Origin: Oryzomicrobium sp.
GTDB lineage: Bacteria; Pseudomonadota; Gammaproteobacteria; Burkholderiales; Rhodocyclaceae
DNA: 64,000 nucleotides
Direction of reading: 5' to 3'
Assembly (NCBI RefSeq): GCF_021287045.1
Contig: NZ_JAJTBG010000012.1
Coordinates: forward strand, 1-64,000
The translations under genes were made by a program, and so were the position numbers. Position 1 is the first letter of the stretch; every line of letters begins with the position of its first letter. The notes under the pieces were generated by a model that was given only the letters and a program-made list of their open reading frames with translations, was not told where the DNA came from and searched no databases. Positions 40,840-57,193 of this stretch are shown here, in pieces.

Positions 40840-41151
40840 TCAAGCCCGGGTGAATTCCTCCAGGCGCTCGAACACCGGGTGCTGGTTGCCGTGGCGGCGG
40901 ACGGCCAGCACGTCCTCGAGCTTTTCCACCTGCTTGATCATCTGCTCCAGGCGGGCGTCCTCGTTGACCTGCAACCAGATGCGGCTGGTGGCGCCATCGC
41001 CCTGGGGCAGCACGACGATGCCTTCGACGTTGTAGGCGCGGCGGGAGAACAGGCCGACCACGTGGCTCATCACGCCGGCATGGTTATTCACGTCGAGCTC
41101 GACCACGGTGCAGGCGAGGGCCTGGCGTTCGGATTGGGTGCTTGCGTTCAT
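40840..41151 (-). CDS. ilvN: Acetolactate synthase small regulatory subunit
   Basis: The 103-residue protein is a single ACT domain (VVELDVNNHAGVMSHVVGLFSRRAYNVEGIVVLP), the size of E. coli IlvN (96) rather than the two-domain IlvH (about 160). ACT domains of this family bind branched-chain amino acids and give feedback inhibition. Two ATG codons lie close together; the second (41151) has GGAGGA 6 bases upstream, so it is used. It is 17 bases after ilvB. Length and pairing indicate an isozyme-I type enzyme. Confidence 0.9.
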   Translation of the reverse strand: MNASTQSERQALACTVVELDVNNHAGVMSHVVGLFSRRAYNVEGIVVLPQGDGATSRIWLQVNEDARLEQMIKQVEKLEDVLAVRRHGNQHPVFERLEEFTRA

Positions 41152-41168
41152 GTTCATTCCTCCCGGAC

Positions 41169-42872
41169 TCAGCCGATCATTTCCTTGTTGGCGGCGCCCG
41201 GGGGCACCATGGGGAACACCTTCTCGGCCACGTCGATGCTGACGTGGATCAGGCAGGGACCGCGGCGGTTGAGGGCCTCCCCGAGCATGGCCCGGGCCCC
41301 GGCGTCGTCGGCGGCCTCGTCCAGATCCACCGCGTCCAGGCCGAAGGCCTTGGCCAGGGCCATGAAGTCGGGAATGCCCTTGTACTTGGAGGCGAAGGTG
41401 CGCTCGCCGTAGAACAGGGTCTGCTGCTGGTACACCAGGCCCAGGGAGGCATTGTTCATCAACACCACCTTCACGTTGGCCTCTTCCTCGGCCAGGGTGG
41501 CGAACTCCTGGATGTTCATCAGCAGGCTGCCGTCGCCGGTGAAGCACACCACGGTGCGCTCCGGCTCGGCCAGAGCAGCGCCCAGGGCGGCGGGCACGCC
41601 GAAGCCCATGGTGCCGAGGCCGCCGGAGGTCAGCCACTGGCGCGGCCGGCGCAGGGGGTAGGCCTGGGCCACCCACATCTGGTGCTGGCCCACGTCGGTG
41701 GCGATGGCCGCCGAATCGTCCAGGGCGTCGGCCACGGCCTTGACCAGGCCGTAGTGGCTGCGGGAATCCTCGACCTTGGGCATGACCAGGGGGAAGTCGC
41801 GCTTGAGCTGGGCGACGCGGCCCAGCCATTCTTCACGGATCACCGGCTTGACCAGGGGCAGCAGGCCCTTCAGCACCTGGCCCACGTCGCCGTGCAGACC
41901 GACGTGGGCGGCTTTGAGCTTGTCCAGTTCGGAGGGATCGATGTCCACGTGGATGATCTTGGCCTGGGGGCAGAACTGGGAGAGCTTGCCGGTGGCCCGA
42001 TCGTCGAAGCGGGCACCCACGGCGATCAGCAGGTCGCACTCTTCCAGGGCCAGGTTGGTGCAGCGGGCGGCGTGCATGCCGAGCATGGACAGGGACAGGG
42101 GATGATCCACCGGCATGGCGCCCAGGGCCATCAGGGTCATCACCGTGGGCAGGGAGGCCTTCTCGGCCAGGGCCGTGGCCAGCAGCGAGGCACCGGAATG
42201 CACCACGCCGCCGCCCAGGTAGAGGAGCGGCCGCTGGGCGCCGTTGATCATCTCGGCGGCGATGGCCAGGGGCTCGGCCGGCACTTCCGGCAGCGGGTCG
42301 GCCACGCCCGGGGCGGGCCAGGCGGATTCGTCGGCGGGCAGTTCGATGGACTGGACCTGGACGTCCTTGGGAATGTCCACCAGCACCGGGCCGGGACGGC
42401 CGGACAGGGCCAGGCGGAAGGCCCGGGGAATCACTTCGAGCAGTTCGTGGGCCGAGCTGACCATGAAGTTGTGTTTGGTGATGGGGATGGTCAGCCCATA
42501 GGTGTCCACCTCCTGGAAGGCGTCGGTGCCGATCATGCTCTGGGGCACCTGGCCGGTGATGGCCACGATGGGAATCGAATCGAGCTTGGCGTCGGCGATC
42601 GCCGTCAGCAGGTTGGTGGCGCCGGGGCCGGAGGAGGCCAGGCACACCGCCGGAACGCCGGTGGCCCGGGTCATGCCCTGGGCGATGAAGCCGGCGCCCT
42701 GCTCATGGCGGGCCAGCACGTGGCGGATCGCCTGGGACTGGGACAGGGCGTCGTAGAAGGGCAGGATGGCGCCGCCGGGAATGCCGGAAACGATGCGCAC
42801 GCCCTGGCGTTCGAGCAGGCGCACGGCGAGCTGGGCGCCGGTCAGGGTGATGGTCTTGGGTTGGGTCGTCAT
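41169..42872 (-). CDS. ilvB: Acetolactate synthase large catalytic subunit
   Basis: The ThDP- and FAD-dependent enzyme makes acetolactate or acetohydroxybutyrate for Val, Leu and Ile. The 567-residue product has the catalytic Glu in VLARHEQGAGFIAQGM, SSGPGATNLLTAIADA, QEVDTYGLTIPITKHN, and the ThDP loop starting at CFTGDGSLLMNIQEF. The ATG has AAGGAG just upstream. A valine-rich leader peptide and hairpin lie upstream (42961-43111), as in E. coli ilvBN (ivbL). No ilvC or other ilv gene follows, so a second acetolactate synthase (ilvIH) with ilvC is probably elsewhere. Confidence 0.96.
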   Translation of the reverse strand: MTTQPKTITLTGAQLAVRLLERQGVRIVSGIPGGAILPFYDALSQSQAIRHVLARHEQGAGFIAQGMTRATGVPAVCLASSGPGATNLLTAIADAKLDSIPIVAITGQVPQSMIGTDAFQEVDTYGLTIPITKHNFMVSSAHELLEVIPRAFRLALSGRPGPVLVDIPKDVQVQSIELPADESAWPAPGVADPLPEVPAEPLAIAAEMINGAQRPLLYLGGGVVHSGASLLATALAEKASLPTVMTLMALGAMPVDHPLSLSMLGMHAARCTNLALEECDLLIAVGARFDDRATGKLSQFCPQAKIIHVDIDPSELDKLKAAHVGLHGDVGQVLKGLLPLVKPVIREEWLGRVAQLKRDFPLVMPKVEDSRSHYGLVKAVADALDDSAAIATDVGQHQMWVAQAYPLRRPRQWLTSGGLGTMGFGVPAALGAALAEPERTVVCFTGDGSLLMNIQEFATLAEEEANVKVVLMNNASLGLVYQQQTLFYGERTFASKYKGIPDFMALAKAFGLDAVDLDEAADDAGARAMLGEALNRRGPCLIHVSIDVAEKVFPMVPPGAANKEMIG

Positions 42873-42960
42873 GGAGGCTCCTTGCAATTCTCGGGTTCGG
42901 ATCACCGCGTCCAGGTTGCTGGGCTGGCTGTTCGTCGCCGGCAGGAGGCCCCAAAAGGCG

Positions 42961-42991
42961 AAACCCCCGTCGGCGTCGCCGGCGGGGGTTT
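42961..42991 (-). terminator. Attenuator terminator of ilvBN
   Basis: The arms aaacccccgtcggc and gccggcgggggttt pair at 13 of 14 positions around a gtc loop. On the minus strand the hairpin is followed by CGCCTTTTGG. It lies 36 bases after the leader-peptide stop and 88 bases before ilvB, which is the right layout for ribosome-mediated attenuation. The U-tract is not immediately next to the stem, so efficiency is uncertain. Confidence 0.75.
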
Positions 42992-43027
42992 CTGGATTCG
43001 GTTCGGTCAGTGTCTGGACCGCTTCGT

Positions 43028-43111
43028 TCAGCTCGCGCAACCCCGCGCCGGCATAGTAACGACTACGCCTACGACGACTACGACGGGGACTGCGACCAGG
43101 GTGCGGAACAT
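43028..43111 (-). CDS. Valine-rich ilvBN leader peptide (ivbL-like)
   Basis: The minus-strand frame from ATG at 43111 to TGA at 43028 encodes 27 residues, 10 of which are valine. Residues 10-14 are five valines in a row and 16-18 three more, split by one glycine; MFRTLVAVP precedes them. This matches the role of IvbL in E. coli, in which ribosome stalling at Val codons under low charged tRNA-Val prevents terminator formation. The downstream terminator is at 42961-42991. There is no good Shine-Dalgarno before the ATG; a TTG eight codons upstream is a possible alternative. The codons include GTA, GTC and GTT. Confidence 0.8.
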   Translation of the reverse strand: MFRTLVAVPVVVVVGVVVTMPARGCAS

Positions 43112-43411
43112 GATGTTGGCGGTGGGCAGAGTCAAAGGGTCGAAGAAACGACGGAGGCTGGGCCGCTACGGCAACCGCTCGATGAGGCGGCTGGAAGCAA
43201 CGTGGGTAACGTCTGAAACTAACCGCGAGGATGGCGGATAACCACCCACGCAAAACTACGGGTAAGCGCGAAGTTTCTGCCAAAAATTGCGGCGGTGCAA
43301 GAAAATTTTTTCACGGACCCGGCAAGAAACATAGCCAAGCCCCGATGCATCCGGTAAGGTGCGCGCCTTCCTGGCCGCACCGGCCATGCCATTGTTTTGC
43401 AACGCTTTCCC

Positions 43412-44740
43412 ATGAACGCCGTCCTGCTCGCCGTCGCCCTGATGCTGGGGCTGTCCCTCGCCCGTATCCACGTGGTCATCGCCCTCCTCCTCTCCGCCGT
43501 GGCCGGCGGGCTGGTGGGCGGGCTGGACCTGAAGGCCACCCTGACCGCCTTCAACAACGGCCTGGGCGGCGGTGCCGGGGTGGCCCTGTCCTACGCCCTG
43601 CTCGGCGCCTTCGCCCTGGCCCTGGCCGAATCGGGCCTGCCCCACGCCCTGGCCGATTTCCTCGAAAAGCGCCTGGCCGCCGCCCCGGGGCGCAACGCCG
43701 GGCGGATCAAATGGGCCATCCTGGGCGCCCTGCTGCTGCTCGCCATCTCGTCCCAGAACCTGCTGCCCATCCATATCGCCTTCATTCCCCTAGTGGTACC
43801 GCCCCTGCTGCACACCCTGGCGGGCCTCAAGGTAGACCGGCGCCTGGTGGCCTGCCTGCTCACCTTCGGCCTGATCACCCCCTACATGTGGTTCCCGGTG
43901 GGCTTCGGCGAAATCTTCCTCAAGCAGATCCTGCTCGGCAACGTGGAAAAAGCCGGGCTGGGCGCCGACGTCATCGCCCGCCTGGATATCAGCGGCATCA
44001 TGACCATCCCCGCCCTGGGCATGCTCGCCGGGCTGCTGCTGGCGGTATTCGTCAGCTACCGCCGGCCGCGCCGCTACGACCTGGCGGCCATCGACGCGGT
44101 GGAGCGGGAATCCGTCGCCTACACGCGCCGCTCCCTGACGGTGGCCGGGCTGGCGGTGGCCGCCACCTTCGCCGTGCAGATCTGGGCCGACTCCATGCTG
44201 CTCGGCGCCCTGGCCGGTTTCGCCCTGTGCGTAGCCGGCGGCGCGGTGCCGCTCAAACGCGCCGACACGGTGTTCGCCGACGGCATGCGCATGATGGCCA
44301 CCATCGGCCTGATCATGATCGCCGCCGCCGGCTTCGCCGAGGTGATGAAGGCCACCGGCCACGTAGCCTCCCTGGTGGAAAACTCGGTGCAGCTGGTGTC
44401 CGGCAGCAAGGCCCTCGGTGCCTTGCTGATGCTGGTGGTGGGGCTGATCGTCACCCTGGGCATCGGCTCGTCGTTCTCCACGGTGCCGATCATCGCCACC
44501 CTGTACGTGCCCTTCGCCCTGCAACTGGGCTTCTCCCCGGCCGCCGTGGTCTGCCTGGTAGGCACCGCCGGCGCTCTGGGGGACGCGGGCAGCCCGGCCT
44601 CGGACTCAACCCTGGGCCCCACCGCCGGCCTCAACGTGGACGGCCAACACGACCACATGTGGGACACGGTGGTGCCCACCTTCCTGCACTACAACCTGCC
44701 GGTGCTGGCCGCCGGCTGGATCGCGGCGATGGTGCTGTAG
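43412..44740 (+). CDS. Na+/H+ antiporter family membrane protein
   Basis: A 442-residue integral membrane protein with 11-12 predicted helices. The sequence GLGGGAGVALSYALLGAFALAL, the SSQNLLPIHIAFIPLVVPPLL stretch and TAGALGDAGSPASDSTLGPTAGL match the family annotated as Na+/H+ antiporter (NhaC-like ion transporter superfamily). The ATG at 43412 is used over a TTG five codons earlier. The exact ion or substrate is not proven. It is divergent from ilvBN, with 300 bases between this start and the leader-peptide start, and ends at a strong bidirectional terminator. Confidence 0.75.
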   Translation: MNAVLLAVALMLGLSLARIHVVIALLLSAVAGGLVGGLDLKATLTAFNNGLGGGAGVALSYALLGAFALALAESGLPHALADFLEKRLAAAPGRNAGRIKWAILGALLLLAISSQNLLPIHIAFIPLVVPPLLHTLAGLKVDRRLVACLLTFGLITPYMWFPVGFGEIFLKQILLGNVEKAGLGADVIARLDISGIMTIPALGMLAGLLLAVFVSYRRPRRYDLAAIDAVERESVAYTRRSLTVAGLAVAATFAVQIWADSMLLGALAGFALCVAGGAVPLKRADTVFADGMRMMATIGLIMIAAAGFAEVMKATGHVASLVENSVQLVSGSKALGALLMLVVGLIVTLGIGSSFSTVPIIATLYVPFALQLGFSPAAVVCLVGTAGALGDAGSPASDSTLGPTAGLNVDGQHDHMWDTVVPTFLHYNLPVLAAGWIAAMVL

Positions 44741-57096: not shown

Positions 57097-57193
57097 TGGC
57101 GGAAGGGAATGGGAGTCGAACCCACCTGGGACCGGCTGACGGCCCCATCCGGTTTTGAAGACCGGCCGCCCCACCGGGGAACGCCGCCCTTCC
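57097..57193 (-). tRNA. selC: tRNA-Sec (anticodon TCA)
   Basis: The minus-strand sequence begins GGAAGGGCGG and ends CCCTTCCGCCA, with the anticodon TCA at 57158-57156 in the loop CTTCAAA. The acceptor-T domain uses the long 13-bp type pairing, and the extra arm is long (GGGGCC...GGTCCC), as in bacterial selC. The T-arm has GGTTCGACTCC. It is 97 nt including an encoded CCA. This tRNA reads UGA as selenocysteine with SelB. It follows selB, 115 bases downstream. Confidence 0.96.

Follow-up and report, generated by a model that had tools for sequence, protein, structure and literature searches.

The DNA analysed here, a 64,000-nucleotide stretch of an Oryzomicrobium sp. genome (hereafter the window), very probably carries a ribosome-mediated transcription attenuator of ilvBN that is homologous to the ivbL-ilvBN attenuator of Escherichia coli. 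A valine-rich leader open reading frame (ORF) of 27 codons sits 239 nt ahead of the ilvB start on the minus strand, and a terminator stem begins 36 nt beyond its stop codon (Table 1).

Table 1. Features of the ilvBN attenuator locus, in positions of the window
Feature	Position	Strand	Details
Leader peptide ORF (putative ivbL homologue), 27 aa, 10 Val	43028..43111	minus	ATG 43111-43109, TGA 43030-43028
Putative control region, codons 10-18 (8 Val + 1 Gly)	43058..43084	minus	GTC GTA GTC GTC GTA GGC GTA GTC GTT
Segment 2, GCCGGCGCGGGGTT	43039..43052	minus	Within the leader ORF 3' end; predicted antiterminator 5' strand
Segment 3, AAACCCCCGCCGGC	42978..42991	minus	Common to predicted antiterminator and terminator
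Segment 4, GCCGACGGGGGTTT	42961..42974	minus	Predicted terminator 3' arm
Interrupted U-tract, TTTCGCCTTTT	42953..42963	minus	First three T are part of the stem
ilvB, AHAS I catalytic subunit, 567 aa	41169..42872	minus	ATG 42872; NCBIfam NF006016, 981.8 bits (cut-off 870)
ilvN, short AHAS I regulatory subunit, ACT domain	40840..41157	minus	NCBIfam NF006036, 145.4 bits (cut-off 128)

The leader translates as MFRTLVAVPVVVVVGVVVTMPARGCAS, with ten valines, one leucine and no isoleucine. A sequence-only reading of this DNA had described the frame with its nearly unbroken run of eight valines, a stem-loop with 13 of 14 pairs before ilvB, and a layout like that of E. coli ivbL-ilvBN; its coordinates proved exact, and the layout is conserved across the loci of the family. 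Its suggestion that the peptide would sense mainly valine also holds, and valine specificity is conserved in relatives. In all six frames of the window the leader is the sole stretch with at least seven valines per ten residues, and no such stretch arose in 20 dinucleotide shuffles of the window. Compared with a genome of the same genus (G042), 81 of the 84 leader ORF positions are identical, as are 48 of 62 alignment columns over the 60 nt upstream.

In a tree of IlvB proteins the window's IlvB groups with that of E. coli, apart from the AHAS II and AHAS III rows. The leader peptide matched neither Pfam PF08049 (IlvB_leader) nor NCBIfam NF007579 (IvbL); one family leader (L094) reached 17.2 bits against PF08049, where 25 are needed and E. 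coli ivbL scores 72.6. What we claim is that the locus is homologous, not that its peptide belongs to these models. No Rfam model matched between 42850 and 43300 at gathering score, and the best leader-region match at permissive E-values, sodF_sRNA (25.9 of 46 bits), is taken as chance. The only Rfam match over gathering in the window was a selenocysteine tRNA gene at 57101-57193 (RF01852, 71.8 bits; ARAGORN anticodon tca).

We searched 199 genomes of the same family. Two observations lead us to call it Rhodocyclaceae: one member (G081) shares an identical IlvB with Azospira sp. I13, and the rows of the family include Accumulibacter and a Rhodocyclaceae MAG. The search yielded 102 AHAS-I-like ilvB loci (at least 59% identity) in 101 genomes, and 100 of these loci were examined, the other two being cut at contig ends. 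A valine-rich leader ORF, defined by at least four valines in ten residues, precedes ilvB at 98 of the 100, and 84 of the 98 leaders have at least six valines in ten. Ten distinct AHAS paralogs had at most three valines in ten upstream, apart from one locus (L104) with four, which would pass the same lax cut. Because the leader is present at 98 of 100 loci and the paralogs reach only four valines, attenuation is very likely. The two AHAS-I loci without a valine leader (L071 and L076, in genomes G140 and G135) carry a second, odd type of AHAS-I ilvB, which starts GSANLP rather than GGAILP and forms its own branch of the tree. Our literature searches, which covered few subscription papers, found no report of this attenuator in Rhodocyclaceae.

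The predicted terminator pairs segments 3 and 4 (42991-42961) at 13 of 14 positions around a GAC loop; CGCCTTTT comes next. Folding of the 201-nt leader gave z = -2.37, and the alternative duplex of segments 2 and 3 reaches -28.7 kcal/mol, a value as low as which occurred in 0 of 100 shuffles. As long as segment 4 has not yet been made, the minimum-energy fold of the window sequence is the antiterminator; once segment 4 is present it is the terminator, even with segment 2 free, and antitermination must therefore be kinetic. A hairpin followed by T residues occurs at all 98 family leader loci (median -27.9 kcal/mol). It has the shared core CCC..CGG at 97 of them, the remaining locus (L022) having been assigned another hairpin, and across the 98 loci the duplex between its 5' arm and the leader end has a median of -22.0 kcal/mol.

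Taken singly, the duplexes of segments 2 and 3 score modestly because C-rich arms pair with many G-rich sequences: 53 of 98 outperformed at least 95 of 100 shuffles, and 13 outperformed all, while 20 were beaten by more than 20 of the 100. What carries the antiterminator case is that segment 2 keeps a constant place and that the segments change jointly. When 97 loci are aligned on the arm core, the letters of segments 2, 3 and 4 at one position are coordinated as C-G-C in 76 and as A-T-A in 6, and at a second position as A-T-A in 8, counts that lean towards structure because the pairs were predicted for each sequence individually. In a swap test, segment 3 of seven CTCCGG-type loci paired with their own leaders at about -21.1 to -21.8 and with the leaders of three other groups at -12.9 to -15.6. 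The GCCGGT-type segment 3 likewise favours its own leaders (-20.9 versus -16.1 to -20.0), the GTCGG group had no clear preference for its own leaders, and the terminator arms of the CTCCGG group did not favour their own arms. The sequence-only reading had made its proposal depend on conservation in related genomes. The valine run is indeed conserved across the family, and so, as far as the predicted folds indicate, is the alternative pairing, with partial compensatory change. A protector hairpin between a segment 1 and segment 2 was considered and dropped, as segment 2 pairs upstream in most folds with no consistent partner segment.

By analogy with E. coli, where readthrough rises when valine (and leucine) is limiting, translation, stalling, termination and readthrough would be coupled as follows. 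A ribosome would follow RNA polymerase along the leader ORF as this is transcribed. Given ample charged tRNA-Val, the ribosome would reach the stop codon and cover segment 2, so that segments 3 and 4 would form the terminator and transcription would stop before ilvB. In valine shortage, the ribosome would stall in the valine run and leave segment 2 free to pair with segment 3; the terminator could then not form, and ilvBN would be transcribed.

The window's leader ATG has no Shine-Dalgarno sequence, its anti-Shine-Dalgarno duplex being +1.4 kcal/mol, and this lack, also new here, is a family-wide trait. The median energy at leader ATGs of the family is +0.1 kcal/mol, with 3 of 89 below -5, compared with a median of -8.4 at the family's ilvB starts, where 85 of 87 fall below -5; choosing the best in-frame leader ATG brings the former count to 8 of 89. 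Leader energies this weak next to those of ilvB mean that the leader starts without a Shine-Dalgarno sequence. Random places have a median of -2.85, with 27% below -5, and since the leader median lies above this, the leader start codons seemingly avoid such a sequence. No sigma-70-like promoter was found by a scan of 42800-43500; by eye, a CTTG..TAAT-like pair stands about 40 nt before the leader ATG in many relatives.

An arrangement of this kind could also come about with no regulation, from a constitutive or intergenic terminator that happens to lie beside an accidental valine-rich ORF. The terminator hairpin does exist, and in a GC-rich genome GTC and GTA repeats could be low complexity. 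However, the valine run is conserved in position at about 100 loci, is absent before the paralogs and has no counterpart in the shuffles, and E. coli has the same segments, all of which makes an accident extremely improbable. We likewise consider it very unlikely that the leader acts through translation, by coupling or by masking of the ribosome-binding site, or through a Rho-dependent step in place of an intrinsic terminator. In favour of such a step, the window's U-tract is interrupted and weak, and a mechanical scan of 42800-43500 called no terminator; yet relatives have T-richer, better U-tracts after the same stem, and ilvB has its own strong Shine-Dalgarno sequence about 90 nt beyond the hairpin, which excludes the ilvB start.

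Read as a transcription attenuator, the window locus and E. coli ivbL-ilvBN (K-12 MG1655, b3672-b3670) are, judging from their letters, one homologous module. The E. coli K-12 locus reads GCGCCGTAGGG / CCCCGCCGGCGC / GGGCGGGGTTTTT, and it is the near letter-identity of these segments that argues for homology of the two attenuators. Both loci have a valine-rich leader with segment 2 at the end of the ORF, a shared segment 3, a GC stem with a T-tail and AHAS I genes downstream, and segments 2 to 4 are nearly identical in their letters. E. coli K-12 ivbL ends GGCAATGCGCCGTAGGGACTGG, then AACCCCGCCGGCGCAAACCGGGCGGGGTTTTTCG, and many family leaders end GGNAACGCGCCGTAACGGGG, with AACCCCGCCGGCGCAAGCCGGGCGGGGTTTT; family leader peptides such as VVVVRVVVGVGGNAP were compared with VVVVRVVVVVGNAP for the same kinship. 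The window's genus has a divergent form of the module: the peptide lacks VVRVV and the NAP end, and its stop codon comes 9 nt after segment 2, whereas in E. coli the stop falls within that segment. The window also differs in having no GUG codon, a weaker U-tract and no Shine-Dalgarno sequence. From a weak Shine-Dalgarno sequence and the interrupted U-tract the sequence-only reading had suggested that this is something other than a copy of the E. coli version. The interrupted U-tract and the absent Shine-Dalgarno sequence are real, but the departure drawn from them is not supported: the E. coli segments are nearly the same, the U-tracts of relatives are better, and the Shine-Dalgarno sequence is missing family-wide. 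The true difference from E. coli, whose ivbL has five GTG and four GTC, is the choice of valine codons.

Two other leader systems bear comparison. Enterobacterial ilvL-ilvGMEDA, which was seen next to AHAS II loci (L136 and L143 among them), also attenuates an AHAS operon through a leader peptide, but its leader mixes isoleucine, leucine and valine and it controls AHAS II. In Corynebacterium, parts of a report on ilvBNC (PMC10272879) describe a short ORF upstream of ilvB that regulates ilvB; this belongs to another phylum and is likened here by layout only.

That AHAS I is common in the betaproteobacterial family Rhodocyclaceae (101 of 199 sampled genomes have an AHAS-I-like ilvB) is new; parts of a 2017 survey of 70 genomes (PMC5727371) place it only in gammaproteobacteria, Desulfovibrio and one firmicute. 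Elsewhere its distribution is patchy: AHAS I was found in four of the 250 order-level genomes (three of the four belong to the Rhodocyclaceae-type family), in 11 of 369 of the class, and in 10 of 398 of the phylum. These ten are the window's genome and nine members of one family (f192), within which the named enterobacterial rows fall; the order of the enterobacterial genome G770 has AHAS I in 18 of 247. Elsewhere in the class a valine-rich leader stands at nine of ten AHAS-I loci. Enterobacterial IlvB nests inside the Rhodocyclaceae-family rows (SH-aLRT 96-99), but the family as one clade was not rejected by an AU test (p 0.119), nor by a repeat without 21 rows that were long or odd and 23 that were near-copies (p 0.243). 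It is therefore only suggested that the enterobacterial ilvBN and its attenuator (L117-L125, L193, L204-L212) descend from the family as an offshoot of the Rhodocyclaceae-type one.

Short valine-rich ORFs also precede AHAS large-subunit genes in a Treponema MAG (L128), a Fibrobacteres MAG (L129), a Myxococcales MAG (L135) and Breznakibacter of the Bacteroidota (L148), the last three with a GC hairpin after the ORF as judged by eye. Control by valine attenuation may extend across several phyla. At one further locus (L258, genome G950) the ilvB frame has an internal TAG, which may reflect a sequencing error or a pseudogene.

A second new finding is that the leader valine codons are inverted relative to those of ilvB, while the codons of most other amino acids are not. 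The 775 valine codons in the last 24 codons of the 98 leaders are 64% GTA, 25% GTC, 5% GTG and 6% GTT, compared with 2%, 34%, 55% and 8% in 70 AHAS coding sequences (69 ilvB and one AHAS-III-like paralog, L002). Arginine, glycine, serine, leucine and proline codons hardly differ between leaders and ilvB, those of alanine, threonine and isoleucine shift modestly, and third-position GC without valine is 0.77 versus 0.80. The window's leader has six GTC, three GTA, one GTT and no GTG, and five neighbour genes use GTG for 75% and GTA for 4% of their valines.

The cause of this choice may be tRNA-Val(CAC). Among the 48 tRNA matches in the genome of the window, three are valine tRNA genes (UAC, GAC and CAC). 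In a tRNA search that took in 80 of 91 genomes, a pattern found tRNA-Val(CAC) in 47 of the 51 family genomes tested, and BLAST with ARAGORN found it in G126, one of the four missed. Direct verification confirmed 27 of 30 pattern loci, plus further ones; matches in G405, G035 and G748 could not be confirmed as tRNA-Val, the first two lying outside the codon-comparison rows and the third being counted as without CAC. The gene was not found in 18 enterobacterial and related genomes, where the lone pattern match (G748) is no tRNA and where absence refers to BLAST (E 1e-8) and one pattern rather than full tRNA annotation.

The comparison of codons with tRNA genes covered 50 rows with CAC and 23 without, all with full-length ilvB and from genomes tested for CAC and assigned a state, which sets aside G077, G195 and G170; L229 and L232 (without a leader) and L203 (no leader found) were not among the rows. 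Relative to its own ilvB, the leader is enriched in GTA and depleted in GTG in 48 of the 50 genomes with CAC, two lacking the inversion, and in none of the 23 without (Mann-Whitney p 2.6e-11, kinship ignored). All five CAC genomes outside the family (G439, G438, G1316, G501 and G393, the tRNA verified by ARAGORN in each) fit this when pooled: the summed leaders have 36% GTA and 16% GTG, and ilvB 3% and 64%. Genomes without CAC have 3% GTA in leaders versus 19% in ilvB, and 45% GTC versus 17%. Only 3-4 independent changes fall on the tree, with about 2.9 of 3 pairs in the expected direction (sign test p 0.25), so the link between codon and tRNA, likewise new, makes a strong pattern but a weak test.

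We tentatively hypothesize that valine attenuators sense particular isoacceptors and that the set of tRNA genes decides their regulatory codon, an idea that we take seriously while stopping short of believing it. Where CAC is present, a leader written in GUA and GUC would read only the UAC and GAC isoacceptors and avoid the GUG-reading CAC isoacceptor; where it is absent, as in enterobacteria and others, the leader would use GUG and GUC, and E. coli ivbL-ilvBN would have descended, with its codons rewritten, from a module like that of Rhodocyclaceae. The GUA preference might instead stem from RNA structure or from a need to avoid start codons. GTG can serve as a start codon, and inside the ORF it could begin translation beyond the stall, GUA weakens pairing with the C- and G-rich segments, and CAC-bearing genomes are also GTG- and GC-rich. 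However, leaders of genomes in which CAC was not found use GUG at 44% and GUA at 3% within the same RNA design, and they are GUG-rich even where ilvB is GTG-rich and GTA-poor (G516, G826, G343 and E. coli). Together with the unshifted codons of the five other amino acids, this makes structure or start-codon avoidance a plausible but somewhat improbable explanation.

The E. coli leuL attenuator resembles the present one in using a rare synonymous codon as its regulatory codon, and differs in its amino acid, leucine, and its operon. Why attenuators use particular synonymous codons has long been asked, and for E. coli the selective tRNA charging theory gives an answer, with the leu operon as the rare-codon example (PMC1183508). 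With the present results, both AHAS I and the ivbL-ilvBN attenuator of the textbooks reach into a betaproteobacterial family, in about half of its sampled genomes. The same switch, with and without a third valine isoacceptor and with opposite codon choice, offers a natural comparison, in which transferring one tRNA gene, or altering three letters, would put the selective-charging theory to the test.
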